From: an uncultured Fidelibacterota bacterium
GTDB taxonomy: Bacteria > Fidelibacterota > Marinisomatia > Marinisomatales > TCS55
Length of the DNA: 64,000 nt
Assembly: GCA_902615915.1 (NCBI GenBank)
Contig: CACMQQ010000004.1
Span: 62,001 to 126,000, forward strand
Direction: 5' to 3'
Position numbers and translations under genes: made by a program. Below, piece after piece: positions 1 to 17,564 of this stretch (within the stretch, counting starts at the first letter, position 1; each line of letters starts with the position of its first letter). The notes beneath the pieces were generated by a model, which saw nothing but the letters and a program-made list of their open reading frames with translations, was not told where the DNA came from and searched no databases.

Positions 1-3000
1 AGACCGACCGGACTAGTTGCCATTCCCGGTGACCGCAAAGTTACCCTTGGATGGAATCTCAGTAATGATCCTGATATTGCTAAATACTACATATATTACG
101 ATACTAACTCAGATCCCACAACTCTTCGTGATTCCACTTTGAGCGCTTTTCAATCGAACAAATTGATCACCCCGCTTATCAATGGAACTACTTATTACTT
201 TAAAGTTGCAGCTGTAGATAGTTCAAACAATATCAGCATTAAAACGCTTGGTGCAAGTGCTTCTCCTATCAAAGGTTCGGTATATACTGTCAAAACAGAC
301 ACTTCAGGAGGATTTGATTTCTCTAGAATTCAAGATGCGATCAATGTCAGTAAAGATATAGATACCGTTTTGATCTATCCAGGTAATTATAAGGGAGGAA
401 TTAATTTCACTGGAAAGAAAATTGTAGTGGGATCGTTGTTTCTTACAACTGGCGATACAGCTTATATCGATTCAACGGTCATTGATGGAGAAGAATCAAC
501 CAGCGCTGCAACGTTTATATCAGGGGAGGACTCTACCTCTGTTCTTATAGGATTATCGCTAACCAATGGATATACCACTATCAATGGTGGAGGTGGAATT
601 CGTATTGAAAATTCAGATCCTAGATTAAAAAATCTAAAGGTCTTTTCAAATTTTGCCAATATTGGAGGGGGGGGCATCAGCTGTGAAGCTTGTGATTCTA
701 GAATCACCAATGTTACAATAAACAATAACTCTTCATCTGGAAAAGGAGGTGGAATTAGAATTTTCAATGGATCAAACCCAGAACTAATTAATGTTGCTAT
801 TAATTCCAATTCTGCAACGGAACAAGGTGGTGGAATATCCATTGAAGGTCTACCTGGAAATAATATTGATCTTGAATTCAATAGATTAACTGTTCAAGAA
901 AATACTTCGGCAACGGTTGGTGGTGGAATATATCTTTATATATCTAAACTTAATCTATCAAAAGCATTCCTGATGAAGAATTCTGCCTCGACTAAAGGGG
1001 GAGGTATTTCGATAGAATGGGATTCAGATCTTACAATTGAGAATTCATTCATTTTAGGAAATACATTGACTGCAGGGGACCAGGGATCTAATATCTATAT
1101 AGGTAAATCAGATCAGATCATTGGCTCAACTGAGAAACTTCAAGCAATTAATATCAATGTAGTTGACACCGTTTCCTCAAATATTTCAATGTATTCCAAT
1201 GGTCTTATCAAGCCATTATTGATCAATTCTATTAATGTAGGAAAATTGGATGCAGCTGTTCCTACCTATAACTTTGATTTGAATTATAGTTATTGCGATG
1301 ACTGTACCAATCTCCTGACTTTCACGACCAATCCTGGAAACCTGACTGGAGATTTGCCGTTCATTGATATGGATAAAGAAAACTTTGAACTTACCGATGA
1401 TTCCCCTCTTTTAAGCGCTGCTGCCCTATCTTTCACCACTATTACAGGTAAAACATATAATGCTCCAAGCGTTGATCTAAACGGAAGATCTAGGCCTAAT
1501 CCCATTGGATCAATACTTGACATAGGCGCAATTGAAAGTGAATTTTCAGGCAAAACACTTGCTACGACCGGCATTACAGACGGCCTTTCGATTTCAAGTG
1601 AGCTTGATTTTAGCAATATCACTTCCACCCTATCCTCAAGATGGAATCCATATTTGAACGACTCTCTCAATACCTATACCTATGAATTTGCGATTGGCGA
1701 TAGTAGTTCTAGTAACAATGTAAAAGATTGGACCAATAATGGATTTAATACCCAAGTAACTGTATCAGGATTAAATCTGCAAAATAGTGTGACCTATTAT
1801 TTCAGTGTTCGGGTTTTAAATAAGAACGGAACAATTCTTTCTACTATGAGAACGGACGGTGTTCTCATTGATACACAAAAGCCAGTTATCAGCGGTATTC
1901 ATGATGGATCAGATAGCGACATTGATTGGTACGGATTAGATAGCGAAGGCACGGTCATTTTTAACGTTATCGATAATTCGGGTGTAAATATCTACGAATT
2001 CTCAATCGGTACGACTCCAGGAGAGCGAGACGTACTCAACTGGCAATTAGTCCAAGATAGTGTAGGTATATTCAGTACAAAAGATTTTGTTGAAGAAACG
2101 ACTTATTATGTGAATGGAAGGGTCACTGACCGGGTCGGATATGTATCAGACGTAGTTTCATCAGATGGATTTCAGATGGACTTTACAAACCCAATTGCCG
2201 GCAATGTTGCTATAGACAATCCATTTCAATCCAATATCAACACCTTATCATTTAGCTGGGATGGATTCAAGGATGGGCAAAGTGGGATGGATCGTTATGA
2301 TATCATAATAGGAACTGAAGCTGGAAAAAATGATATCTCTCCCAGAGTTTCAACCAACTCACTTACCAATGTAACTATTGATGGACTATCGCTTGAAAAT
2401 AACGTTAAATACTATGGAACAATCTTTGGTATCGATTCAGTTGGTAATGAATCTTCGTCTAGCTCTGAAAGTATTACTATCGATCTCATTCCCCCTACGG
2501 TTGGTACCGTAGCTGATGGATTAGATAGCGATGGTGACTGGTTCAATGACAATGCTAGCGCAAGTGCAAATTGGACCGGCTTTAGTGATTTCAATGGTAT
2601 TAAAGAATACTTTTTGTCGATCGGAACCGAAAAAGGGAATCCTAATATAAAAGAGTGGACCAGCACAGGCGCAGATACTAGTTTTACGTTTACAGAGCTT
2701 GGACTCACTAATAGTACTTTATATTACTTTAACGTCCGCGCTAGCGATCAATTAGGAAATGTTTCAGAAAGTATTTCTTCAGATGGATTTTATATAGATA
2801 CCGACAATCCTCAAATTTCCAGCTCCTCAGCAGATCCAAGCGTTCCCTTGACCATTATCGGTGACCTGAGTATAGATATGACTCTAACTGAAGAGATATT
2901 TAATTACAATGTTAATGTCTCTAGTCTCCACGGAGATATTGTAGCCATCGATCCAAAATCGTCTCTAAGAAACAACAATACTACCCTAAATATTATGCTA

Positions 3001-3978
3001 ACCTCCCCTTTTACAAGCGGAGATCAACTTACTATAGAAATTTCCCTCTCTGATAGTGCAGGAAATAGTAGCGCAAATATCAACTATATATACAATGTAG
3101 CATATCTATCTGATTTTGATCAGGACGGGCAGATAGATATTACCGATGTTAATAATTTTAGTACCGCCTGGAACGAAAAGGATTACTCCAAGGAGCTCGC
3201 ACCGGTGACCGGTAGTGCGCCTTACTTCACCCCTGCCCCAGATGGTGTCTTTGATGTACGCGATGGTATGGCCTTTGTACGAATGTGGCAGTGGAGTAAT
3301 AATAGCTCCAATAGAATGCTAGCTCGCCGTAGTAGCTTCAACAGTGGTGCTTCCTTAGATGTGGATGTAGAAAACGATCATCTTTTGATCACGCCACCTA
3401 AAAGCGTGCGTGCGGTCGAACTTATCGCTAACTACGCTCCTTACGATATCGCTCTTGCGATGTCGGATGAGAATGTGGTCTCTAGTGATGCCATCAGCCT
3501 CGTTAGCAGCGACACCCTATCTGGAAGCTTACTGATCCACACTGCTCGCTACGATCAAACAGCAGATCCGATCCGTATCGATGTTAAGCATCTACAAAAG
3601 GAGATGGACGTTCCAGTGACGCTATCCTACCGCTATCTAGGAGTGAATGGTGAGGAGATCGCAGCAGGATCAGAGACGATAGAGATCGTACCGGTACCGA
3701 CCGATTTTGCACTGCACAACAACTACCCCAATCCGTTCAATCCAGCCACATCGATCGATTTTGATCTACCGGAGGATGGCAATGTGGTGCTGATGATCTA
3801 CGATGTGATGGGACGAGAGGTCGCTACCTTGCAAAACAGTGAGATGAAAGCTGGTTATCATAGCGTACGCTGGGATGCCCGTAATCAAATGGGAAGAAAA
3901 GTAGCGGCTGGGGTCTACTTCTATCAGATCAAGACCGCTCGTTATCTTAAGACGCGCAAGATGGTGCTTTTGAAGTAA
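1..3978 (+). CDS. Multidomain secreted surface protein with C-terminal T9SS-type sorting domain (5' end outside window)
   Basis: The reading frame is open from base 1, so the gene starts to the left; the first internal start-like codon (TTG at 139) lies inside a fibronectin-III domain and is not the true start. Domains in order: Fn3 (nt 1-280, ending in a 'GTTYYFKVAAVD' strand); a right-handed beta-helix of pectate-lyase type with repeated GGGI turns (about nt 285-1300); a choice-of-anchor-Q-like segment ('SPLL...DLNGRSRPNP...DIGAIES', about 1375-1540); four Fn3-like modules with 'YEFAIG/YEFSIG' and 'TYY' strands (1560-2815); an Ig-like domain (2815-3100); a dockerin-like calcium-binding pair ('DFDQDGQIDITD' and 'APDGVFDVRDG', 3112-3290); and a FlgD-like sorting domain with 'NYPNPFNPATS' near 3721. 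I infer export through the outer membrane and anchoring or release at the surface. The ligand is unknown. The C-terminal half is collinear with the next gene. Confidence 0.85.
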   Translation, partial: RPTGLVAIPGDRKVTLGWNLSNDPDIAKYYIYYDTNSDPTTLRDSTLSAFQSNKLITPLINGTTYYFKVAAVDSSNNISIKTLGASASPIKGSVYTVKTDTSGGFDFSRIQDAINVSKDIDTVLIYPGNYKGGINFTGKKIVVGSLFLTTGDTAYIDSTVIDGEESTSAATFISGEDSTSVLIGLSLTNGYTTINGGGGIRIENSDPRLKNLKVFSNFANIGGGGISCEACDSRITNVTINNNSSSGKGGGIRIFNGSNPELINVAINSNSATEQGGGISIEGLPGNNIDLEFNRLTVQENTSATVGGGIYLYISKLNLSKAFLMKNSASTKGGGISIEWDSDLTIENSFILGNTLTAGDQGSNIYIGKSDQIIGSTEKLQAININVVDTVSSNISMYSNGLIKPLLINSINVGKLDAAVPTYNFDLNYSYCDDCTNLLTFTTNPGNLTGDLPFIDMDKENFELTDDSPLLSAAALSFTTITGKTYNAPSVDLNGRSRPNPIGSILDIGAIESEFSGKTLATTGITDGLSISSELDFSNITSTLSSRWNPYLNDSLNTYTYEFAIGDSSSSNNVKDWTNNGFNTQVTVSGLNLQNSVTYYFSVRVLNKNGTILSTMRTDGVLIDTQKPVISGIHDGSDSDIDWYGLDSEGTVIFNVIDNSGVNIYEFSIGTTPGERDVLNWQLVQDSVGIFSTKDFVEETTYYVNGRVTDRVGYVSDVVSSDGFQMDFTNPIAGNVAIDNPFQSNINTLSFSWDGFKDGQSGMDRYDIIIGTEAGKNDISPRVSTNSLTNVTIDGLSLENNVKYYGTIFGIDSVGNESSSSSESITIDLIPPTVGTVADGLDSDGDWFNDNASASANWTGFSDFNGIKEYFLSIGTEKGNPNIKEWTSTGADTSFTFTELGLTNSTLYYFNVRASDQLGNVSESISSDGFYIDTDNPQISSSSADPSVPLTIIGDLSIDMTLTEEIFNYNVNVSSLHGDIVAIDPKSSLRNNNTTLNIMLTSPFTSGDQLTIEISLSDSAGNSSANINYIYNVAYLSDFDQDGQIDITDVNNFSTAWNEKDYSKELAPVTGSAPYFTPAPDGVFDVRDGMAFVRMWQWSNNSSNRMLARRSSFNSGASLDVDVENDHLLITPPKSVRAVELIANYAPYDIALAMSDENVVSSDAISLVSSDTLSGSLLIHTARYDQTADPIRIDVKHLQKEMDVPVTLSYRYLGVNGEEIAAGSETIEIVPVPTDFALHNNYPNPFNPATSIDFDLPEDGNVVLMIYDVMGREVATLQNSEMKAGYHSVRWDARNQMGRKVAAGVYFYQIKTARYLKTRKMVLLK

Positions 3979-3984
3979 GGAATC
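3163..3984 (+). repeat. 822-bp near-identical C-terminal module, copy 1
   Basis: This stretch matches 16743-17564 with two visible differences: G/A at 3487 versus 17067 (Asp versus Asn) and the last base of the stop codon at 3978 versus 17558 (TAA versus TAG). Identity begins abruptly at 'ACCGCCTGG' inside the dockerin-like domain and stops just after the stop codon ('GGAATC'). It encodes the end of the dockerin-like region and the whole sorting domain. Its start is strikingly GC-rich (37 of 60 bases in 3181-3240) compared with the sequence just before it (17 of 60 in 3061-3120). Confidence 0.95.
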
Positions 3985-4142
3985 CCCCTTTTTACATAAT
4001 CAAATTAATGCGTACTTTTGCAGTAGTTTGAACCACTATTGTTTTTGATAATATTAAGTTGTGTAGTGACGGTAATCACTGCAAATTTTATTACTTTTAT
4101 TTAACTTTTTGTGATTTTTTGATCAAAATAGGAATTATAAAT
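3979..4142 (+). promoter_or_regulatory. Leader and probable promoter region of the giant gene
   Basis: A 164-base AT-rich gap between the two large surface-protein genes. A TTGAAC at 4028-4033 followed by GATAAT/TAATAT around 4047-4054 resembles promoter elements, although the spacing is shorter than the usual 17 bases. GGA at 4131-4133, nine bases before ATG 4143, is a plausible ribosome binding site and supports that start. No clear terminator follows the upstream stop codon, so read-through from the first gene is also possible. Confidence 0.3.
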
Positions 4143-7100
4143 ATGAATAGGAATGATCTTTTGAAAAGCGGAATCAAAAGAATGACCCAAATCTTACTTT
4201 CACTTTTGATGATTTCTGTACCCCTTTTGGGACAGTCCAAGCCAACCTTCATCAAACAATTTGAATACGACGATGAGAACGGGCAATGGGGTAACCCTAT
4301 GGTAGTCAATGATAGCATCTTGATAGTTGCTTATTCAGGCTATAAAGGATTTGGAAATGTGCAAACACTTAAAATTGCTGCAGATGGTAGCACTATCAGC
4401 AAAGTTGCACTACTGCGTTTTGATGATGATGATGCCTATGAGATCTCTATGGAAAAAGTCGCAAACGATATGTTCGTTGTTGCCTACAGAGGGCGAAGTC
4501 AAGATGGCTTTATTACAACCATTAAAGTTTCAGGGGACGGTCAAACACTCACACAAGTCAAAAAATTAGAACATGACACGGCCGATGGACGCAATAATGC
4601 CATAAGAAAAGTCGACAGTGATACCTATGCCTTAAGCTACATTGGAACCAATGGTAGCGGTGCTTTGAAACATCGTATCAAAACCTTTACTATCCCTGCA
4701 GATGGGTCCAATATCACTGAAGTTGCAGTGCTAGATCTTAATACCTCTTACATTGTAGGTAACAGCGCTGATATCATTGAAGCTGCTGCTAATATGTTCG
4801 TAGTAGCAAGCAGCTCAAACAACACCATCACACTAAAAACAATCTCTATTTCCAATGACGGCGCAACGATCACTGAAAAAACATCTAAAAATATTTCATC
4901 TTCTGGAAAACAGTTCTCTTTAGCTAAGATGACCAGCAATCTATACATCCTTGAATTCTATGGAAATCATAAGGGCCCAACTAGCAATAACTCCTCGAAT
5001 GGAGGAGTCGTAGCATCAATTGATATACCGGCAGATGGTTCCAGTATTACTCCCCTAACCTATCTAAGGCATACTTCATCCTCTGGCTTTGATCAAAATA
5101 CCGTCATAAAAATTGATAACAATACTTTTGCAGCGGCTTACAAGACAAGCAAAGGAATCCTAAGGACATTTAATATGTCTAACGATGGCAGAACATTGAC
5201 AAATGTGGGTTATGTCAATTTTTTCAATAGCGCCACAAAATTCAACAACATCATTCAGTGGAAGAACAATGTTTATTTGATAACCTATGCTGGAACAGGT
5301 GATAAAGGATATATCAACACCTACAAGATCGAAAGCGATAAGCCCTACATCAATTCTTACGTTTTAGCTGCTGATAACTCCACTGTTAAAGTAACTTTCA
5401 ATGAAGCAGTTTACAATGCAACGGGCGGAAGTGGCGCTTTAGAAGCATCCGATTTTACGATAGCAATGTCGGGAGGAAAAGCATCATTGACCAGCGCTAC
5501 CCCATCAGCTATTTCAGCTTCAGGAAACGAATATACCTTAAATATCCCCTATGACTTTGCGGACGATTATCCCAACGGAGAAGAAAAGATCACCATCGAC
5601 GTGGCATCAAATGCCATTTACGATGCTAATGATAATGTAGTTCCTGCTCAAACCATCTACGATGCGATATCCACTTCCTCTGACCCTACAACCATCGTTC
5701 AGCGAAACATCAAAACGTTAAGTGATAAAGAATTACCATATGTTACAAGCGTCACCACTGAGCTTGACGAGGATAATACCCCTATACAAGTAACTTTCAA
5801 TGAAGCGGTATTTAACACTAATAGTGGTAGTGGCGCTTTAGAAGCATCCGATTTTACTTTACGAATCGTTGAAAAGACGGAAGAGACTGTTGTCTCCTTC
5901 ACCGATGCAAGCGCGACAACCGGCTGGACCAATGCCTGGCAGAGCTTTACCACCGTCAAAAAAGGATCGCTTAATAAAATATCCCTAAGACTGCAAAACA
6001 CATCCTCGGTCGATGGCTATAGAATGGCTCTCTATCTTTACAACAATGACAGCAACAGTTCTAGTGCAAACCCCAATGATAAGTTCTCAAGCCCAATTTC
6101 GCGATCGCAATTGACCATTGTTCCCAAGAATTCCAATGGCGAGGTCCATTTCATCTTTCCACAAGGGATCCCCTTAGGTGCAAGCGCAAAGTATTACTTT
6201 TGGCTAAAGAATGAAGGAGTCAACCCCTCTGGAGCTGGCAAGGTATATGTAAATTCGTCGCATAATGACGGGGGAGCTGGAAATAGTGCGAGTAGGCTAT
6301 TTCATAAGGTCACTATGTTCACAGGAGAAGGTAGCGGTACCTTAGTCAGTGCTACTCCCTCCTCTATCTCCAAATCTAGCAATACCTATACCCTCGGGGT
6401 GAATTGGGACCTAGTGCCCAACGGAAAAGAAAAATTGGTGGTGCAACCAGCTAGCGGTGCGATATTTGATGCCAAAGGCAATATCGCCACTACCGCTCAA
6501 GCAAAGAACCGTGCTATTGTTAACGACCATCGCATTATATCGGTCAGTGATCTTCAGTATTATAGTAGTTCAAATTATTGGACCAATAATTTAGCGCTAG
6601 GCGATGATCTGGTATTGACCCAACGTAGGGACTATTTATATCTTAACCAAATAGCAAAAGACGGAAAGACTAAAACCCAAAAATCAACTTACCGCCATCA
6701 GCCTTCTGAACACAACAGAGATACCGATCTACTCAGAGTATCGCGCAACCTATTTATCACTAGCGCTTCAGCGTATGACTATGGCGTATCACAAACGCAC
6801 GGCAACATCATCAAAAGCATTACCTTAAGCAAGAACAACCAAATGATGGTCGTCGATACTTACAAACCCGACAACATCAATAATTCTAGTTTTGGTGGGG
6901 GTCCTTCTCTTTTGCAATTGAACGACAGTGTATTTGTTTCGGCCTATCAGGGAAATGGATACGATGGATACATCCATACCTTTAAAATGGACGAAATGGG
7001 TTATTTTACCAAACTGCAAATGCTGGAGCATTACAACGGAAATGTTGGAAAGAATATACTTCAAAAGATTGATGCCAATACCGTACTACTACTATATCAC

Positions 7101-10100
7101 AGAGGAACCAGTGCTGGTCAGGGGTATCTAACCACCTTTGATATTTCAGCGGATGGTAAAACGATCACCAAAGTAAAGGAGGTCTCCTTATCCTCCTATG
7201 TTCGATTTCCATCAATGGTTAAACGCGCTGATAGCGCTTTTGTAGCAGCCTACACCGGCCCGAGTAACGATGGATTCATCTCTACGATCACGACCACTGC
7301 CGATGGCAAAACGATCACAGTCAAAAAAACGGTCGAGCATGATACCGATAATGGGCAATACAATTCATTGTTAGGTCCTTATGATGAAAAATTCGGACTT
7401 GCCTATACCGGGCCTGGTAACGATGGATTCATTAAGATCTTTGAGATCCCTAATGATGATACCATAACTGAAGTGATCAACGTTGAACATGATAGAAATC
7501 AAAGCACCTATAATTCTGGCTTCATGCATGACTGGGATACCTATGGCATAACCCATCAGGATAGATACGGACGTGGCAATATGTCCTTTTTAGATATTAA
7601 TAGTAAATTACCTCTTAACCCGGGTATATCTAGAGTGTCCGTCAATACCGCCAACTCTGAGCTGTCGGTTACCTTTAATGAAGCGGTTTATAACGCAACG
7701 GGTGGAAGTGGCGCACTTGAAGCATCTGACTTTGCGTTATCGTTAGAGGGAGGAACAGCCAAGCTCGCTAGCGCAACCCCAACCAGCATTTCTTCCTCTG
7801 GAAACACATATACCCTAGCCTTTGGCATAACGGGCACACCTGACGGGCGTGAACGACTCACGGTAAGGCCTGCTGCTGCCAATGCGATCTATGATGCCAA
7901 CGATAACCCTGTCAAGGTCACTTCAGCAGATCTATATGCTACCTATCTTTACGATAAAAAGATACCGACCATTACTTCGATCAACAATGTATATAATGAA
8001 TATTTAGAGGTCAATTTTTCTGAACCCGTATACGGTGGAACCAATGGGAACGAAACCGTGGTAACCTCAGACTTTGTGTTAAGCTCAACGGGAGGTACTG
8101 CGACCGTTAATGCTACCCCAACCAGCGTAGTGGGTTTTGGCGGATATGGAAAAAATACTGCACTCGGGTCTAAATACAAGATTTATTTTTCATTTTCCGG
8201 TACTCCTGATGGAAATGAAAAGCTAACGCTAAGCGTAAAAGCGAACAGCATCTATGATGTTAATCTCAATCCGGTAGCTACCTCTCAACCTAAAGGAAAA
8301 GCCGATCTTTTCAAATCAAAGCTGTTAAGCGTTGGATCTATGGAGTATAATACCTCTGAGGGCCGTGATGCATCCGTGGTACATGTTGAAAATGATGTTT
8401 ATGCTATGGCCTACTCTGGGCCAAGTAAAGATGGTCATATACAAACCTTCAAAATGTCCAAAGATGGAAAGACCATTCAAAAGATCAAGGACATTGAACA
8501 TAATACTAATTATGCAGATATGCATGGGATGATCCGCCATAATGAAAACATATTCTTGGTGGTGTTTCGTGACGGCAGTAGCGATGGATGGTTAAAGACA
8601 TTCGCAATTAGCGCGGATGGATCCACTATTACTGAGGTAGCAAAATTAGAATACAACACGGCATATGGATATTGGCCTTCCATTAAACGCGTCGATCATG
8701 ACACCTACCTCCTTGCATATGCCTACGGAGGCAGTCAGGGGTATTTACAAACTTTTGACATCTCAGCAGATGGAAAGACCATAACCAAGATAAAAAGCTA
8801 TCGCCATGATAGCAATTGGATGGGGTATAATACGCTATTGCAACTATCACCCAATTACTTTGCACTTTCCAATCGCGGTGTTCGCAATCATTCAAACGGA
8901 GATTGGAAATATGGGAATTGGATCAAAACGTACAAGGTATCCGATGATGGAGCGACGATCACCCCTATCACTTCCCTAAATCATGCGCCATCCAGTAATA
9001 GCAACTACGGTTATTATAACCATTTTGCCAAACTCGATTCTGACAGCTACGCTTTGATGACCCATAGTTATGATTCACAAGAAACTGGCAATCAATGGAA
9101 AGGGATTCTAAAGACCTTCACCATTGCACAAGATGGGTCAAGCATTAAACAGGAATCGGTTCAAAAATTCTTCAATGAAGAGATAAACGGAAGCGATGGG
9201 GATCAGACCTATCTTCTTTTGGTCAATTCTGATAATCTAATGATCAAATCTCGTGACCGCAATCAAGATGGATGGATCAAGAATTACAAGATATCCAATA
9301 ATGGGAGCACGTTAACTGAAGATTGGAAATTTGAATTTGAAACCAATAGATATCGAAATCTACATAGACAAGATGACGAACTATTTCTTGTCGATAATAA
9401 CACATTAGGTATTACTTATAGTGATGCAAGTTACGATGGTCAGATAAGAGCGATCGATATGATATTGACCGATGCTCAAAAACCTATCATTGCCAGCACC
9501 AAGCTTTCTTATGACAATGCAGTGCTGATGGTTGATTTTAATGAACCTACCTTCAAGGATGCGAATGGAAGTGGATTCTTAGAAAAAACTGATTTTGAAT
9601 TAACGCTCACTGGAGGAGCTGCCACCCTCGCTAGTAAAACGCCTAGCAAGATCGTCAGAGATGGGAATATGTATCTACTGACTGTTTCATACAATGGCAT
9701 AGCAGATGGAAACGAGGTTTTAAAAGTTGCGCCTGTTGCAGATGCCATATTTGATGGAGGCGGCAACAAGGCAGAGGCAACGCAATCAAACAATACCGTC
9801 ACGTTAAATGAGAAGACACTGCCCAAGATCGCGTCTACTTCACTATCAGGAGATAACAAAACATTGACCGTTACGTTCAGTGAAGCCATATTCGATCAAG
9901 CATCCGGTTCAGGTGCGATTGAAAAAGGAGATTTTGTTCTTTCCGTTACAGGTGGGGCAGCAACACTGACCAATGCGACTCCAATTGCTATTTCCTCACT
10001 TGGAAGCAATGCCTATGCGCTCACGGTTGGCTATCAGGGTATGGCCAATGGTACCGAGGTCATCAAAGTAACGCCTGCCGCCAATGCGATCTTTGATAAA

Positions 10101-13100
10101 GCAGGAAACATAGCTAGCACTACGCAAACAAACAATCAACTTTCTTTGAACGAGGTCAAGATCCAGCAGATCGCAAGCGCTGAGCACAATACCTCCAACG
10201 GCACCTGGAATTCTCTTATTCGCGTAGATGATGATACTTACGCTTTAGCCTACGCTGCTAGTAGTAGTTATGGTAATGTCAAGACCTTTGCCATCTCAAA
10301 AGATGGGCTCACTATCACAACTGCTCAAAACAAGCAATACCAATCATCAAGCAGCCTTTATAATGATTTTACCCAGATTGATAACAATACATTTGCGGTA
10401 GTATACACTGGTCCCAGCAATGATGGATTTATTCGCACGATGGATATCTCTAGTTCTGGAGCTATAAGCTTAAAAAGTGTATTAGAATTTGATACTGGTC
10501 AAGCGACCTGGAATAGCATAGCCAAAGTGAAAGGCTCAGTTTATGCGGTAGCCTACTCAGGGCCAAACAGCGATGGGTATATTCGCACCTTGAATATTGC
10601 TGAGAATAGCGGATCAACGACCATCACCAACTTAGCATTCAAAGAACATCACACAGAGGATGCTGACCATCATGATCTAGTTAACCTCAATGACAGCACC
10701 TTAGTTCTAGCTTATAGAGGTGTGAAGTCTGGCAGTCGATTCCTAGCCTTAAAAACATTTCATATATCAACCGATGGTAAGACCATTACTGAGAAGAAAA
10801 AGCTAGAATTAGCCTTTGAGGGCTGGTGGCCATCTATCGCGGCTGTAGATAACAACACATTTATTATGGCCTATCAAAAAGCGGGAGGAACAGGCGAGAT
10901 AGCGACCTTTGATTATACTGCAGATGGTTCGTCCATTACCCAAGTAAAAAGTCTAAAATTCGAAGATAATAATACCAGACATCACAGTTTGGTCAATAGT
11001 GGTTCCAACACATTCACTCTCGCTTCCAATACCAATAACACCAACAACTATATGCGCATGTTTACGGTTCCTACGGATGGCAAGACCATTACCCTGACCT
11101 ATGCGACCACGTTTGATAATAATCAAAATAATAACACTGGCACTTATTATTCTCTTGTTAAGGTCGATTCAGATACCTACGCACTTGCCCATACTGGACA
11201 CCAGAACGATGGCTACATTAAGACCTTTGAGGTCATTGCGGGTGATAAGGTGCTTCCAGTTATTTCCTATGTTAAACTAAATGATAACAATGCAGCGATC
11301 GATGTTACTTTCAATGAAAATGTATTCAGTAGTGCAGGGGCAAGTGGCAACCTGGATGCAAATGATTTTGTTTTAACGATAACAGGAGGTTCGGCGAAAT
11401 TAGCTAGCGCCACCCCCACCAGCATTACCAACACCAGTAAGACCTACACACTTGGTTTTACCCTAAACGGCTCCCCTGATGGAAATGAAACATTAACTGT
11501 TAGCCCTGCTAATAACGCTATCTACGATGCAGGGGGTAATATTGCGAATACCACACAAAGCAACAATACCTCAAAGTTAAATGACAAAAGTGGACCAAAG
11601 ATCACCAAGACATTGCTTGCAGCCAACAACGCTTCGATCATAGTAACTCTTAATGAGGCTAGCTTTAATACATCTAGTGGGAGCGGAAAACTGGAGAAAG
11701 AGGACTTTGTACTTTCTTTATCAGGTGGTGCTGCGAAATTAGCTAGCGCCACTCCAACCAGCATCTCTGACTCTGCAACCGTATATACATTAGGTTTTTC
11801 TATTACCGGATCTCCCAATGGGTCAGAACTGCTAAAAGTTGTCCCAGCAAATAACGCTATCTACGATAGCAAAGGAAATGTCTCAAGCGCTGTTCAACTT
11901 AACAATTCCGTTAACTTGAAGGATATCGTTCCACCTGTTATCGATTCGGTTCGAGTTTCGAGTGATAACGATATTGCGTTGATATATTTCAATGAGAAAG
12001 TTGCCAGCAAGAACGATGGAACGGGTGCTCTTGATTCAGCGGATTTTGTCTTTTCCATTTCCGGTGGAACGGCAAAGCTTGCTAAAAGCTATCCTGTTAG
12101 CGTTTCTGCGTCAGATAACGTGATATCACTGGGTGTATTTTTGAATGGTACTCCAGATGGGTCAGAGACTATCACCATTTCTCCCAAAGATAGTTCTATT
12201 TATGATCTGAGAGGCAATCTTGCAAATGCATCTCAAAAGAACAATACCGTAAAGCTATTTGATAAGATCCTCCCCTTTATCACCAAATCTAGCCTCTTGC
12301 CAAGTAATGACTCGATTAGCATCACCTTTAATGAAAGCATTTTCGCTAAATCAGATGCCAGTGGATCTATTGACACCAGCGACTTCGCGTTCACACTCAG
12401 TGGGGGAGCTGCCACCCTGCAAAAGAATTATCCTTCAGGCATACGAAAAGACGGCAATACGTACCACCTTGCATTAAACTTAAAAGGTGTCCCCGATGGA
12501 AAAGAAAAACTGATCATTAACCCTAATGCAAATTCGGTATTTGACGCCAGTGGTAACAAAGCGAGCACATCGCAAAACAATAACAACCAAACACTGAATG
12601 ACAAGGCTCCACCTGAGATATCTAACATTTCTCTAGCAAGCGATAACAGCGCACTGACCATCACCTTCAATGAAGCTATCTTTAGTAACAGTGACGGAAA
12701 AGGAGATATTGAAAAAAGTGATTTTGTTATGGCTTTAGCTGGTGGAAGAGCAACTCTTGCTAGCCCCTTCCCTACCAGTCTATCCAAAAGCGGTAATACA
12801 TACAACTTAGGGATCGGATTGAATGGAGAACCTAACGGTTCAGAAGAGCTCACCCTTTTAATTGTGGATAGAGCCGTTTTTGATGCAGGTGGAAACTCTG
12901 CGGTATCGAATCAGACCAAATCTAAAGTTACCTTGAATGATAAGAATGCACCGATCATCACCAAATTATTACTTTCTGAAAACAATGAAACCGTTGAAGT
13001 TACCTTTAACGAAAAGATCTTTGGCACAATAGATGGTAATACCGCTATCGATAGCTCGGTTTTCAATCTTAGCATTAGCGGTGGAACGGCAAAGTTAACC

Positions 13101-16100
13101 CAAGCAGATCCTAAGAAACTGACCGCAAAAGATTCTGTAACGTATACCATTACCCTACCGCTTAGCGGGATACCAGATGGAAGTGAAACGGTTACCATAG
13201 CCTTAGAAAAAGAATCTGTCTATGATGCTTCAGGCTCAGAAGCTGCTACAACTCAAGCAGTTAATAAGATTACATTGAACGACCTTAGCGCCCCATTGAT
13301 CGTTTCTACTAAACTCAATAGCGATAATTCAAAGATCACCGTGCTATTCAATGTATCCGTTTATGGAACGACCAAGAATACAGGGGATCTGGAAACCGAT
13401 GACTTTGAGCTAACTATTGCTGGTGGTAGTGCAACCTTAAAGAATTCTACCCCAACCACCATTTCTTCAAGCAACAGTGCAAAGCAATATGAATTGACAT
13501 TTGAACTTTCAGGTGAAGCTGACGGAACTGAAAAACTTACTGTGAAACCGGTTAGTAATGGCATATTTGATTCCGCTGCAAACGCTGCATCCAAAACACA
13601 AACTAACAATACCGTCAATCTCTTTGATAAGAGAGCGCCACTGATCTCATCTACAAGTTTGAACACTTCCAATGATACACTCACCGTTGTTTTTAACGAA
13701 GCGGTCTCTAGTGGCGATGCTAGTAATCCTACAATAAAAAATGAAGGATTTGTTCTAAGTATCACTGGTGGATTAGCCACTCTAACCAGTCCTTATCCTA
13801 AAGAAATTATCGTATCAGGTAATACATACAAACTTCTTCCATCCATTACTGGAACACCAGATGGAAATGAATTGTTAACGGTCACCGCAAGCAATGGATC
13901 CATATTCGATGCAAGTGGTAACGATGCATCCCTAAAGAAACAGAGCAACAATTCTGTCTACTTGTTTGACCAAAAAGCGCCGAAAGCTCCAACGGGTCTT
14001 TATACCATCACTGGAAATGAGAGAATAACTCTTTCTTGGAAGACCAGTGACGAAAAAGATATTGATAAATACTACATTTTTCAGGGCACCTCCCCTACCT
14101 CAACCAGCAAGATAGATTCGGTTGGATACGGTATTAACTCATTACATATCTCAAGCTTGACCAATGGAACGCGTTATTATTTTAAAGTATCTGCATTAGA
14201 TAAAACAGGGTACGAAAGCACTAAGAGTGATACCACTTCCGGTATACCATCCACCACAATGTCTTACACTGTAAAATCAGATGGAACGGGAGATTTTACA
14301 TCTGCTCAAGATGCGATAGAAAAAGCTGTGAATGGTGATACCGTTTTTATTGCAACCGGTGTTTATGACTCTATAAGAGTAGATAGCAAGACCATCAATA
14401 TTATTGCAGGTGACGGCCCGGCCAATTCGATCATTGATGCAAAAGGAAAAACTACAGCTGTTAAATTATTAGGCTTTCCAAACCAAACAACTATTTCCGG
14501 CTTTACAATAAAAGGAGGGATAGGCGATAACAATGCAAATGAACTTGGTGGTGGCATTCGAGTTGAAGCGGGAGTAGATGCGAAGATCGAAAATTGTATT
14601 GTGACCGATAACAAAGATGGTGCGCTTTATTTTGCTGATAGCAGCTCTACAACTATATCCAATGTACTTGTTTATGGCAATGATCAAACCTTTAACATAG
14701 GTTCAGGTTCTGTTACTTTTCTCAATTGCACCTTTAGCGATCAAGAAAAGGATGCGACAGCAACGACTGGATCTAAGATGAACTTTATCAATACGATCTT
14801 TATGGATCATGTTTCAACGGAAGATAGCGTAATGAATGCAGAGCTATTCGCTGACCATTCTTTATTCACTTTTGGAGATAACACCTTTAATTCCAATCAT
14901 TATGGCGCTTTTAACTATGGGACGAATAATTTGGTTGATGATCCACTTTTTGCTGATACCTTGAATAATGATTACCATTTGAATCGTAAGTCTCCTGCGA
15001 TTGGTTTTGGAACTTTGTCCCTTGTAGTTGGGGGAGCTACCTACAAAGCTCCTGAAAAGGATCTTGACCTCAATGCAAGACCCGGTCCATCAGGTTCTGC
15101 TCCAGATCTTGGTGCTTTCGAAAGCCCTTACTCCAGCTCATTGCCCCGAGCTAACAATATTTCAGATGGATTAAGCGATACACTAGAACTTGATTTTACA
15201 AACTCAAGCACTACATTGAGTGCTCGATGGAAATCTTTCGGATCTGGCATTACCTATGATTATGCCATTGGTACCGGTAATTTAAAAAACAACATTGTTG
15301 ATTGGACCGCTAATAGCACTGATACTAGCGCAATAGTCACCTTGTCAGGTGCTGGACAGCTACAAAATAGCACTACTTATTTCTTTAGCGTAAGAGGTAG
15401 CAACGACCAAGGTTCGGTCACCATAACCACTGATGGAGTATTTGTCGACTTAGAAGAACCAATGATATCCTCCGTAACAGAATTTAAAACTGATCTCGAT
15501 TGGTTTGGCCCCACTATTGATGGGCACATCTTTGCCAATGCTTCCGATAATGGCGGAATTACCAAATATGAATTCTCTATCGGTTCAAGTGCCGGCTTGG
15601 ACGATATTTTGCCTTGGACTGTGAGCGATTCCAACTCATTCTTAGCGGATGTAAGCAGTTTGAGTGAAGATGTTACCTATTATTCGAATGCTAGGGTTAC
15701 TGATGTGGTAGGAAATATAGTAACTCAATCATCTGATGGATTTAAGATGGATGTAACCAATCCTATCTTAGGAAATATTTCCATTGGCAATGAATATCAA
15801 TCTGATACCAGCAAGGTCACTTATGTATGGTCCGATTTTGATGATCTTCATAGTGGAATAGCTGATTATCAATACAGCTTAGGAACTGAATCTGGGTTAA
15901 CGGATGTGATCCCAAGAACATCGTTTGGCTTGAATGCAGACTTTGCTTCCGTTTCCATCACTATTGGAGGTCTATCGCTTCAAAACGAGCAAACTTATTA
16001 TGGTACTATCTATGCGGTTGATAAGGTGGGCAATGAAACCTTAGCTTTCTCCGAAGGTGTGACCATTGACCGAAATGGACCTGAAGTTGGTCAAATCGTT

Positions 16101-17558
16101 GATGGGTTTGGTCCAGACCTAGATTTTCTCAAAGACACCACAAGCGCTACAGCAAGCTGGAGCGGATTTTATGATCTCAATAGAATAGATTACTACGAGC
16201 TAGCACTCGGATCATCTGAAGGGAAGACCGATATTGTTGATTGGACAGATGTTGGAACCAGCTCATCTTACTCATTCAATGGGCTTTCATTAAAACCAGG
16301 AAGTAGTTATTATTTCAGTATAAGAGCTTTTGACCGATTAGGAAATCCATCAGAAACAATATCAACCGATGGATTTTTGATTGATATGGTTGGGCCAAAT
16401 ATATTAGGCGTATCGGTACCAACAGACAAGATTTTAGCTATCTATGAGCCTATTTCAATAGATGTTTTCTTGTCAGAGATCGCAAAATCTGCTGAAGTCG
16501 AATTCAGAACTGAAAGGGCGAATATCTTCAATTTAGAACCAGATTATAAAGTGAACGGAGATACGGTAAATGTAACCTTTAAGCCGCCATTTACCAGTGG
16601 TGACAGAATCACATTCACTATTAGCGTAACCGATGTTGCTGGTAACGAGACAAAAGATCTATCCTACACTTACACCATAGCTCTGCTTTCTGATTTTGAT
16701 GAAGATGGTGAAATAGGGCTTGGAGATATTTACGGACTAATAACCGCCTGGAACGAAAAGGATTACTCCAAGGAGCTCGCACCGGTGACCGGTAGTGCGC
16801 CTTACTTCACCCCTGCCCCAGATGGTGTCTTTGATGTACGCGATGGTATGGCCTTTGTACGAATGTGGCAGTGGAGTAATAATAGCTCCAATAGAATGCT
16901 AGCTCGCCGTAGTAGCTTCAACAGTGGTGCTTCCTTAGATGTGGATGTAGAAAACGATCATCTTTTGATCACGCCACCTAAAAGCGTGCGTGCGGTCGAA
17001 CTTATCGCTAACTACGCTCCTTACGATATCGCTCTTGCGATGTCGGATGAGAATGTGGTCTCTAGTAATGCCATCAGCCTCGTTAGCAGCGACACCCTAT
17101 CTGGAAGCTTACTGATCCACACTGCTCGCTACGATCAAACAGCAGATCCGATCCGTATCGATGTTAAGCATCTACAAAAGGAGATGGACGTTCCAGTGAC
17201 GCTATCCTACCGCTATCTAGGAGTGAATGGTGAGGAGATCGCAGCAGGATCAGAGACGATAGAGATCGTACCGGTACCGACCGATTTTGCACTGCACAAC
17301 AACTACCCCAATCCGTTCAATCCAGCCACATCGATCGATTTTGATCTACCGGAGGATGGCAATGTGGTGCTGATGATCTACGATGTGATGGGACGAGAGG
17401 TCGCTACCTTGCAAAACAGTGAGATGAAAGCTGGTTATCATAGCGTACGCTGGGATGCCCGTAATCAAATGGGAAGAAAAGTAGCGGCTGGGGTCTACTT
17501 CTATCAGATCAAGACCGCTCGTTATCTTAAGACGCGCAAGATGGTGCTTTTGAAGTAG
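4143..17558 (+). CDS. Giant (4471-residue) secreted repeat protein with SWM/Ig-like repeats, propeller-like blocks and T9SS-type sorting domain
   Basis: The frame is open from TTG 4059, but ATG 4143 has a spaced GGA and is followed by a signal peptide ('ILLSLLMISVPLLGQ'), so I use 4143. Order of parts: propeller-like block A (to about nt 5335, motif 'AY-G---DG-I-T'); SWM repeats 1-2 (5340-6510, with a foreign-looking module inserted in repeat 2); block B (6525-7600); SWM 3-4 (7620-8285); block C (8300-9470); SWM 5-6 (9480-10150); block D (10155-11245); SWM 7-14 in tandem (11247-13975); Fn3 (13980-14260); beta-helix (14265-14930); choice-of-anchor-Q-like segment (14935-15130); four Fn3-like modules (15135-16400); an Ig-like domain; a dockerin-like domain ('DFDEDGEIGLGD'); and the sorting domain. 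SWM repeats carry 'VTFNEAVF' and 'IYDA-GN' signatures. I infer an adhesin or surface-fibre role; no catalytic motif is visible. It is followed 17 bases later by a MORN-repeat lipoprotein. Confidence 0.85.
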   Translation: MNRNDLLKSGIKRMTQILLSLLMISVPLLGQSKPTFIKQFEYDDENGQWGNPMVVNDSILIVAYSGYKGFGNVQTLKIAADGSTISKVALLRFDDDDAYEISMEKVANDMFVVAYRGRSQDGFITTIKVSGDGQTLTQVKKLEHDTADGRNNAIRKVDSDTYALSYIGTNGSGALKHRIKTFTIPADGSNITEVAVLDLNTSYIVGNSADIIEAAANMFVVASSSNNTITLKTISISNDGATITEKTSKNISSSGKQFSLAKMTSNLYILEFYGNHKGPTSNNSSNGGVVASIDIPADGSSITPLTYLRHTSSSGFDQNTVIKIDNNTFAAAYKTSKGILRTFNMSNDGRTLTNVGYVNFFNSATKFNNIIQWKNNVYLITYAGTGDKGYINTYKIESDKPYINSYVLAADNSTVKVTFNEAVYNATGGSGALEASDFTIAMSGGKASLTSATPSAISASGNEYTLNIPYDFADDYPNGEEKITIDVASNAIYDANDNVVPAQTIYDAISTSSDPTTIVQRNIKTLSDKELPYVTSVTTELDEDNTPIQVTFNEAVFNTNSGSGALEASDFTLRIVEKTEETVVSFTDASATTGWTNAWQSFTTVKKGSLNKISLRLQNTSSVDGYRMALYLYNNDSNSSSANPNDKFSSPISRSQLTIVPKNSNGEVHFIFPQGIPLGASAKYYFWLKNEGVNPSGAGKVYVNSSHNDGGAGNSASRLFHKVTMFTGEGSGTLVSATPSSISKSSNTYTLGVNWDLVPNGKEKLVVQPASGAIFDAKGNIATTAQAKNRAIVNDHRIISVSDLQYYSSSNYWTNNLALGDDLVLTQRRDYLYLNQIAKDGKTKTQKSTYRHQPSEHNRDTDLLRVSRNLFITSASAYDYGVSQTHGNIIKSITLSKNNQMMVVDTYKPDNINNSSFGGGPSLLQLNDSVFVSAYQGNGYDGYIHTFKMDEMGYFTKLQMLEHYNGNVGKNILQKIDANTVLLLYHRGTSAGQGYLTTFDISADGKTITKVKEVSLSSYVRFPSMVKRADSAFVAAYTGPSNDGFISTITTTADGKTITVKKTVEHDTDNGQYNSLLGPYDEKFGLAYTGPGNDGFIKIFEIPNDDTITEVINVEHDRNQSTYNSGFMHDWDTYGITHQDRYGRGNMSFLDINSKLPLNPGISRVSVNTANSELSVTFNEAVYNATGGSGALEASDFALSLEGGTAKLASATPTSISSSGNTYTLAFGITGTPDGRERLTVRPAAANAIYDANDNPVKVTSADLYATYLYDKKIPTITSINNVYNEYLEVNFSEPVYGGTNGNETVVTSDFVLSSTGGTATVNATPTSVVGFGGYGKNTALGSKYKIYFSFSGTPDGNEKLTLSVKANSIYDVNLNPVATSQPKGKADLFKSKLLSVGSMEYNTSEGRDASVVHVENDVYAMAYSGPSKDGHIQTFKMSKDGKTIQKIKDIEHNTNYADMHGMIRHNENIFLVVFRDGSSDGWLKTFAISADGSTITEVAKLEYNTAYGYWPSIKRVDHDTYLLAYAYGGSQGYLQTFDISADGKTITKIKSYRHDSNWMGYNTLLQLSPNYFALSNRGVRNHSNGDWKYGNWIKTYKVSDDGATITPITSLNHAPSSNSNYGYYNHFAKLDSDSYALMTHSYDSQETGNQWKGILKTFTIAQDGSSIKQESVQKFFNEEINGSDGDQTYLLLVNSDNLMIKSRDRNQDGWIKNYKISNNGSTLTEDWKFEFETNRYRNLHRQDDELFLVDNNTLGITYSDASYDGQIRAIDMILTDAQKPIIASTKLSYDNAVLMVDFNEPTFKDANGSGFLEKTDFELTLTGGAATLASKTPSKIVRDGNMYLLTVSYNGIADGNEVLKVAPVADAIFDGGGNKAEATQSNNTVTLNEKTLPKIASTSLSGDNKTLTVTFSEAIFDQASGSGAIEKGDFVLSVTGGAATLTNATPIAISSLGSNAYALTVGYQGMANGTEVIKVTPAANAIFDKAGNIASTTQTNNQLSLNEVKIQQIASAEHNTSNGTWNSLIRVDDDTYALAYAASSSYGNVKTFAISKDGLTITTAQNKQYQSSSSLYNDFTQIDNNTFAVVYTGPSNDGFIRTMDISSSGAISLKSVLEFDTGQATWNSIAKVKGSVYAVAYSGPNSDGYIRTLNIAENSGSTTITNLAFKEHHTEDADHHDLVNLNDSTLVLAYRGVKSGSRFLALKTFHISTDGKTITEKKKLELAFEGWWPSIAAVDNNTFIMAYQKAGGTGEIATFDYTADGSSITQVKSLKFEDNNTRHHSLVNSGSNTFTLASNTNNTNNYMRMFTVPTDGKTITLTYATTFDNNQNNNTGTYYSLVKVDSDTYALAHTGHQNDGYIKTFEVIAGDKVLPVISYVKLNDNNAAIDVTFNENVFSSAGASGNLDANDFVLTITGGSAKLASATPTSITNTSKTYTLGFTLNGSPDGNETLTVSPANNAIYDAGGNIANTTQSNNTSKLNDKSGPKITKTLLAANNASIIVTLNEASFNTSSGSGKLEKEDFVLSLSGGAAKLASATPTSISDSATVYTLGFSITGSPNGSELLKVVPANNAIYDSKGNVSSAVQLNNSVNLKDIVPPVIDSVRVSSDNDIALIYFNEKVASKNDGTGALDSADFVFSISGGTAKLAKSYPVSVSASDNVISLGVFLNGTPDGSETITISPKDSSIYDLRGNLANASQKNNTVKLFDKILPFITKSSLLPSNDSISITFNESIFAKSDASGSIDTSDFAFTLSGGAATLQKNYPSGIRKDGNTYHLALNLKGVPDGKEKLIINPNANSVFDASGNKASTSQNNNNQTLNDKAPPEISNISLASDNSALTITFNEAIFSNSDGKGDIEKSDFVMALAGGRATLASPFPTSLSKSGNTYNLGIGLNGEPNGSEELTLLIVDRAVFDAGGNSAVSNQTKSKVTLNDKNAPIITKLLLSENNETVEVTFNEKIFGTIDGNTAIDSSVFNLSISGGTAKLTQADPKKLTAKDSVTYTITLPLSGIPDGSETVTIALEKESVYDASGSEAATTQAVNKITLNDLSAPLIVSTKLNSDNSKITVLFNVSVYGTTKNTGDLETDDFELTIAGGSATLKNSTPTTISSSNSAKQYELTFELSGEADGTEKLTVKPVSNGIFDSAANAASKTQTNNTVNLFDKRAPLISSTSLNTSNDTLTVVFNEAVSSGDASNPTIKNEGFVLSITGGLATLTSPYPKEIIVSGNTYKLLPSITGTPDGNELLTVTASNGSIFDASGNDASLKKQSNNSVYLFDQKAPKAPTGLYTITGNERITLSWKTSDEKDIDKYYIFQGTSPTSTSKIDSVGYGINSLHISSLTNGTRYYFKVSALDKTGYESTKSDTTSGIPSTTMSYTVKSDGTGDFTSAQDAIEKAVNGDTVFIATGVYDSIRVDSKTINIIAGDGPANSIIDAKGKTTAVKLLGFPNQTTISGFTIKGGIGDNNANELGGGIRVEAGVDAKIENCIVTDNKDGALYFADSSSTTISNVLVYGNDQTFNIGSGSVTFLNCTFSDQEKDATATTGSKMNFINTIFMDHVSTEDSVMNAELFADHSLFTFGDNTFNSNHYGAFNYGTNNLVDDPLFADTLNNDYHLNRKSPAIGFGTLSLVVGGATYKAPEKDLDLNARPGPSGSAPDLGAFESPYSSSLPRANNISDGLSDTLELDFTNSSTTLSARWKSFGSGITYDYAIGTGNLKNNIVDWTANSTDTSAIVTLSGAGQLQNSTTYFFSVRGSNDQGSVTITTDGVFVDLEEPMISSVTEFKTDLDWFGPTIDGHIFANASDNGGITKYEFSIGSSAGLDDILPWTVSDSNSFLADVSSLSEDVTYYSNARVTDVVGNIVTQSSDGFKMDVTNPILGNISIGNEYQSDTSKVTYVWSDFDDLHSGIADYQYSLGTESGLTDVIPRTSFGLNADFASVSITIGGLSLQNEQTYYGTIYAVDKVGNETLAFSEGVTIDRNGPEVGQIVDGFGPDLDFLKDTTSATASWSGFYDLNRIDYYELALGSSEGKTDIVDWTDVGTSSSYSFNGLSLKPGSSYYFSIRAFDRLGNPSETISTDGFLIDMVGPNILGVSVPTDKILAIYEPISIDVFLSEIAKSAEVEFRTERANIFNLEPDYKVNGDTVNVTFKPPFTSGDRITFTISVTDVAGNETKDLSYTYTIALLSDFDEDGEIGLGDIYGLITAWNEKDYSKELAPVTGSAPYFTPAPDGVFDVRDGMAFVRMWQWSNNSSNRMLARRSSFNSGASLDVDVENDHLLITPPKSVRAVELIANYAPYDIALAMSDENVVSSNAISLVSSDTLSGSLLIHTARYDQTADPIRIDVKHLQKEMDVPVTLSYRYLGVNGEEIAAGSETIEIVPVPTDFALHNNYPNPFNPATSIDFDLPEDGNVVLMIYDVMGREVATLQNSEMKAGYHSVRWDARNQMGRKVAAGVYFYQIKTARYLKTRKMVLLK
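5880..6345 (+). other. Inserted ~150-residue module shared with the minus-strand envelope protein at 24293-27691
   Basis: Inside SWM repeat 2 of the giant protein the Ig-like pattern is interrupted after 'DFTLRIVEKTEE' by a module containing 'TTGWTNAWQSF', 'SSANPNDKF', 'YYFWLKNEGVNP' and 'NSSHNDGG'. The same landmarks ('VTGWTNGWQKF', 'SSANPNSKF', 'YYFWIKEEGVNP', 'NSSENDGG') occur in the same order at about 26851-26375 on the minus strand. After the module the SWM repeat resumes ('LVSATPSSISKSSNTY'). Aromatic-rich strands and Asn/Asp/Gly loops would suit a carbohydrate- or calcium-binding beta-sandwich, but that is inference. Confidence 0.8.
11247..13975 (+). repeat. Eight tandem SWM-type Ig-like repeats (about 113 residues each)
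   Basis: Repeat starts lie near 11247, 11590, 11933, 12268, 12606, 12948, 13290 and 13640. Each opens with a 'P-I-S--L--DN' strand, has 'V-FNE--F', a D/N-F strand, 'GG-A-LA---PT-IS', then '-G-PDG-E-L-V-P' and 'IFDA-GN', and ends 'TQ-NN-V-LND'. Most copies have diverged, but repeats 7 and 8 share exact DNA blocks (for example 'GCGAAATTAGCTAGCGCCAC' at about 11394 and 11733, and 'AATAACGCTATCTACGAT'). That suggests recent duplication or conversion. The family name (SwmA/SwmB-like, cyanobacterial long-protein repeats) is assigned from motif memory. Confidence 0.8.
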
Positions 17559-17564
17559 GGAATC
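16743..17564 (+). repeat. 822-bp near-identical C-terminal module, copy 2
   Basis: Second copy of 3163-3984, at an offset of 13580 bases. It provides the end of the dockerin-like domain and the entire sorting domain of the giant protein. The sequence immediately upstream is clearly paralogous at the protein level (Fn3-like and Ig-like modules) but strongly diverged in DNA, so the near-identity is confined to this module. Confidence 0.95.

Follow-up and report, generated by a model that had tools for sequence, protein, structure and literature searches.

The 3′ ends of two neighbouring genes for giant secreted proteins in an uncultured Fidelibacterota bacterium are nearly identical in DNA, and this 3′-restricted concerted evolution is very probably the work of intragenomic gene conversion between the two genes. 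Both genes were encountered in the window, the 64,000-nucleotide stretch of DNA that was analysed (G000:C4:62001-126000), which belongs to a metagenome-type assembly of 1.8 Mb in 40 contigs (genome G000; 86.7% complete). The genes are adjacent and arranged head to tail. Gene 1 as a whole (G000:C4:52815-65978; 4,387 aa) starts 9.2 kb before the window, with its last 1,325 aa inside it, and gene 2 is its tandem paralogue (Table 1). The sister genome is TMED144 (G001), and the close relatives in the public collection are mostly recorded as Marinimicrobia.

Table 1. Features of the tandem locus and its surroundings (window positions unless a contig is named)
Feature	Position	Strand	Description
Cohesin-domain protein gene	G000:C4:52211-52750 (L145:7211-7753)		180 aa; 61 bp upstream of gene 1; PF00963, E 1.9e-10
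Gene 1, 3′ part	1..3978	+	Giant secreted protein: FN3/Ig-like domains, beta-helix-like stretch, dockerin-like repeats, T9SS tail
First dockerin-like repeat DFDQDGQIDITD			Outside the homogenised unit
Homogenised unit, copy 1	3163..3984	+	Starts within the dockerin-like domain, ends 6 bp beyond the stop codon; GC3 0.53
Second dockerin-like repeat PDGVFDVRDGMAF	3244..3285	+	From alignment; copy 2 equivalent at about 16824-16865
Tail beta-sandwich domain	3358..3687	+	About residues 112-221 of the structure model; predicted fold like that of cohesin-type modules
T9SS type A sorting domain (TIGR04183)	3724..3975	+	37 bits against a cut-off of 23; pLDDT mostly 82-92; corresponding stretch of copy 2, about 17304-17555
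Gene 2, tandem paralogue of gene 1	4143..17558	+	4,471 aa (start codon ATG at 4143); architecture as gene 1
Homogenised unit, copy 2	16743..17564	+	Two differences from copy 1
MORN-repeat protein gene	17575..20361	+	Lipoprotein-like signal at start; syntenic, downstream of gene 2; marks the locus in relatives

The two copies of the unit, 822 bp each, lie in direct orientation 13,580 bp apart. Direct comparison bore out the preliminary description, which had counted two differing sites with one of them in the stop codon: the copies differ at 3487/17067 (G/A, Asp to Asn) and at 3978/17558 (TAA/TAG), that is, by 0.24% in the assembled sequence, of which the true figure might be slightly higher. 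Identity ends abruptly on both sides, 6 bp beyond the stop and, as had also been described, inside the dockerin-like domain, where the boundary falls after the first of two dockerin-like repeats. Upstream of the unit, the paralogy of strongly diverged DNA that had been proposed was equally evident, with the full-length genes sharing about 38% identity in protein and 35-58% (about 48-50%) in DNA. The two genes are thus old paralogues and not the product of a recent duplication, under which the flanks would be as similar as the tails. Moreover, the tandem pair is common to genera g1 (the present genome and TMED144) and g7 (SAT170), and in genus g8 the species G015 has gene 2 together with the final part of a gene-1 tail; a pair that spans genera likewise does not fit a simple recent duplication. 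The MORN gene is syntenic 3′ of gene 2 in g1, g7 and g8, and has no close homologue in most other genera of the family.

None of the 116 four-fold degenerate sites differs between the two tails of the present genome, while 20 of them (17%) differ between its tails and the gene-1 tail of the sister; the last homogenisation is therefore very recent, later than the split of these two genomes. Over the tail as a whole, the two copies in the present genome differ by 0.24%, whereas the distance to the gene-1 tail of the sister is 6.1%, so that paralogues are closer than orthologues. The four-fold sites refute the reading that the tails stay similar through strong purifying selection, acting on protein or codon usage and with no exchange of DNA, an alternative that retains hardly any probability even though the functions of the tail are conserved and its T9SS domain is the best conserved part: non-coding bases are identical as well, the two tails of SAT170 have diverged to 69%, and GC3 is low in highly expressed genes.

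Trees of the two parts of the genes are in conflict. Upstream sequences (500 aa) grouped by gene (gene-1 orthologues, 100/100; gene-2 orthologues, 99 in a 43-row tree), whereas tails grouped by lineage, the two present tails with that of TMED144 (100/100) and both SAT170 tails with SAT206 and ERR598968 (97/97). By AU test, a single clade of gene-1 tails was rejected for the tails (p=2.8e-8; ΔlnL 113), and a single clade of the two present genes was rejected for the upstream part (p=4e-55). Homogenisation has therefore taken place independently in g1 and g7 at the least, and g8 adds a further case on a shorter stretch of sequence. In g7 the homogenisation has stopped, the SAT170 tails being assembled and distinct at the identity given above. 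The assembled 51 nt of the G015 gene-1 tail, which run through the stop, match its gene-2 tail without a difference, and the similarity carries on for another 18 nt with 2 mismatches. Second tails are mostly unassembled in the sister and in g8, and homogenisation there is read from stretches of 73 nt and 51 nt together with contig breaks. Conservation is not the default state of these tails, since in the tandem pairs of g4 and g5 they cluster by orthology like the upstream parts, and in g5 the tails resemble each other less than the bodies do. Concerted evolution by gene conversion, one of two readings offered in the preliminary description, is therefore strongly supported by the tree conflict, by its occurrence in more than one genus and by the four-fold identity within the genome, with recombination as the copying process that we infer. 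A tail pair in genus g6 (G033:C10:2146-2946 and G033:C105:5568-6368; L186 and L187) is 80% identical, against 61% upstream, and has a mild GC3 excess; the same homogenising process may have acted here longer ago or more weakly.

Contigs break inside the tail in TMED144, G015, G025, G029 and G008, as is expected of a near-identical repeat in short-read assembly, and no break occurs in SAT170, where the tails are distinct. As the result rests on assembled contigs and the same repeat breaks other assemblies, one tail consensus might have been written at both places, yet such an artefact is highly improbable: the copies differ in the stop and at one internal site, the independent assembly of the sister has the matching order gene 1, gene 2, MORN gene and the same gene-specific stops, collapse is not expected for copies several percent apart, and clustering by lineage holds in SAT170 too, with both its tails assembled. 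As the TAA and TAG stops are gene-specific in both genomes alike, the last converted tract may have ended before the stop. Some irregularities were noted in related assemblies. Gene 2 of SAT170 (G007:C23; L141 and L142; PASX01000035.1) is split over three reading frames, by assembly errors or as a decaying gene, and two contigs labelled Chloroflexi (L060; PAOV01000038.1) and Opitutia (L066; PAZC01000015.1) carry Marinimicrobia-type giant genes with T9SS tails, so that their bin labels look wrong.

Since the direct repeats flank the body of gene 2, a crossover between them would excise gene 2 and leave gene 1 intact, and the tails might serve programmed recombination that generates presence/absence variation. 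This is very unlikely, as no relative was seen with gene 1 directly before the MORN gene, within a view limited by contig breaks.

The other reading of the preliminary description was a portable secretion-tail cassette, a single DNA module copied onto many passenger genes to build new surface proteins. The abrupt boundary, the generic export function of the tail and the 23 T9SS tails found at protein level in the present genome (E < 1e-5) would fit it. However, a DNA search of the genome and its relatives returned two copies only in the present genome, which refutes the cassette there at 86.7% completeness, and nothing above 92% elsewhere among 61 genomes (92% in the sister; 73% for the next match). 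The genes that carry the copies are not different passengers but the two members of a single old, syntenic tandem pair, and just one other tail of the genome is full length, at 43% protein identity, in a gene related vertically to that of the sister. Several DNA-identical copies on unrelated genes, as expected of a portable cassette or mobile element, were thus not found in the genome, the two copies being on paralogues, and such a cassette has a very slight chance of being the explanation. The gene with the only other full-length tail (G000:C9:1-5010; L146) has a GC3 of about 0.45 in tail and upstream part alike, where ordinary genes of the window have about 0.25.

The unit also stands apart in base composition. 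Its GC is 0.495, compared with 0.38-0.40 just upstream and 0.353 in the whole window, and its GC3 is 0.53 versus a maximum of 0.40 in other genes of the window (61 windows of 272 codons). At the boundary GC3 steps from 0.31 upstream to 0.53 in the tail; at a finer scale, the 30 codons that precede the boundary have 0.23-0.30 and the first 30 inside the unit 0.63, after which the value stays near 0.5. The step lies at about the same codon in four species (the present one, TMED144, G015 and G029). The GC3 excess of tail over upstream part is +0.21 and +0.19 in the present genes, +0.18 in the sister, +0.31 in G015 and +0.32 in G029 (classed as homogenised from a contig break), compared with a mean of 0.016 (sd 0.048, maximum 0.109) in 38 other full-length tails of the family (Mann-Whitney p=1.7e-4, uncorrected for phylogeny) and a mean of −0.01 (maximum 0.13) in 22 other T9SS tails of the present genome. 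Partly homogenised pairs are intermediate, with +0.07 and +0.10 in G033 and +0.06 and +0.03 in SAT170. Across genomes, tail identity within a genome correlated with GC excess (rho 0.36, p 0.04), but no conclusion is drawn from this, since the tails that truly pair with those of G015 and TMED144 are unassembled, which weakens the correlation. GC3 is low (0.23-0.35) in orthologous tails of the g7 type, in which homogenisation has stopped, and GC1 and GC2 of homogenised tails are 0.56 and 0.40, versus 0.50 and 0.34 in non-homogenised orthologues. The differences between the present genome and the sister at four-fold sites, left unpolarised as outgroups are too distant, are balanced by direction (9 versus 9). 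The GC elevation was seen in two genera only (g1 and g8), and may have a single origin there.

Codon optimality does not explain this composition: GC3 is 0.23 in EF-Tu and EF-G (and 0.20 in PorU), so there is no translational selection for G/C-ending codons. Alternatively, both genes could have acquired a GC-rich tail horizontally from a donor of higher GC. This would account for GC3 and GC1 that exceed those of the flanks, but is unlikely. No DNA relative closer than the sister was found among the 61 genomes, and viral contigs gave one weak relative only; the tail and body of gene 2 are similarly diverged from relatives in protein (about 50-56% versus about 49-52%); and the tree places the tails with the expected Marinimicrobia lineages. 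Furthermore, the high GC3 is kept across genera beyond synonymous saturation, so that something must maintain it; as the present genome and G015 are far beyond that saturation, an ancient import is expected to have decayed. Carriage of the tail by viruses was considered separately and rejected on the single weak viral relative. The contrast between unit and flank reported in the preliminary description is real, and GC-biased conversion accounts for it better than import does. GC-biased gene conversion is, with moderate confidence, the best explanation of the composition of the tract, in view of its location, sharp edge and lineage distribution. On balance, ectopic conversion between the paralogous tails appears to have raised the GC3 of the tract 20-30 points over that of its own gene and genome, with a step at the edge of conversion and low GC3 in the related lineage where conversion stopped.

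Encoded in the unit are the second of the two dockerin-like repeats, a beta-sandwich and the T9SS sorting domain. TIGR04183 scored 33 and 31 bits on the whole proteins and 37 bits on the tail (curated cut-off, 23), and the dockerin profile NF041540 (dockerin_GC) scored 22 bits, under its cut-off of 29; the first dockerin-like repeat fits the F-hand pattern and the second is degenerate. In an AlphaFold model of the tail, two helices (low confidence) and two beta-sandwiches (good confidence) are predicted, for which Foldseek returned cohesin-type modules and PorU among the top matches, at low TM-scores. The T9SS machinery is represented in the genome by PorU (528 bits; cut-off, 420) and by SprA, which is over its cut-off in two pieces on two contigs; the tail therefore has its machinery, and as in T9SS type A proteins (TIGR04183/PF18962) the domain lies in the tail with PorU and SprA in the genome. 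From sequence, the tail is a T9SS type A cargo signal, predicted to be recognized and cleaved by PorU. The tails of genes 1 and 2 would possibly, perhaps probably, also dock to the single cohesin protein encoded upstream of gene 1. Homologues of this cohesin gene were observed immediately upstream of giant dockerin/T9SS-tail genes in G012, G018, G008, G028 and G019, mostly with an overlap of a few bases, which suggests a conserved cohesin-dockerin surface system in this family.

A course of events can be proposed on these data. The two giant genes derive from an old tandem duplication that predates the split of the genera sharing the pair. Their bodies have since evolved independently, and the last ~272 codons have very probably been overwritten repeatedly by non-reciprocal homologous recombination (gene conversion). 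Such conversion would be confined to the tail, with the tract stopping at the dockerin linker, because only the tail is similar enough to recombine, the ~50% identity upstream being too low. The shared function of the tails (one secretion machinery and possibly one cohesin protein) probably keeps them alike, so that homogenised versions would be tolerated or favoured, and repair of heteroduplexes in favour of G:C would have raised the GC of the converted tract.

A comparable pattern is on record for babA/babB and homA/homB of Helicobacter pylori, of which 5′ parts group by gene and 3′ segments by strain through intragenomic conversion (PMC2795765 and PMC3960876, citing Pride and Blaser 2002). 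As in the present case, these are surface-protein paralogues with concerted 3′ segments and diverging 5′ parts; they encode outer-membrane proteins, with the pattern described within one species. The genes studied here differ in that the tail is a T9SS sorting tail, the bodies share ~50% DNA identity, the pattern extends across genera and the GC step is marked. Rates of intragenomic conversion have been given for tuf genes and rRNA operons (PMC8022953), where conversion likewise homogenises paralogues faster than mutation separates them; there, however, nearly whole genes are homogenised, and here one 3′ domain only. In the open literature (most subscription journals lie outside this coverage), we found no precedent for T9SS tails homogenised at the DNA level, and nothing on T9SS with gene conversion or on Marinimicrobia with dockerin. 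What is new relative to the known cases is the restriction to a T9SS tail, in genes otherwise of ~50% DNA identity, the recurrence across genera and the sharp compositional step.

Under the hypothesis of GC-biased gene conversion in bacteria, GC is higher where recombination is more intense, irrespective of optimal codons (Lassalle et al. 2015, PMC4450053). That study rests on broad correlations of gene GC with evidence of recombination, as has most of the argument for bacteria so far, whereas here one sharply bounded tract is seen that brings its own unconverted controls. The locus is a natural test of whether gene conversion in bacteria favours G and C: within one gene, the tract that is converted and the body that is not have expression, strand, replication position and mutation environment in common, and related genera supply unconverted controls. 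The tail repeat also accounts for the breaks at this point in metagenome assemblies of the clade. In addition, the locus shows that in huge secreted proteins the tail for export and docking can undergo concerted evolution, with the binding regions diverging freely.
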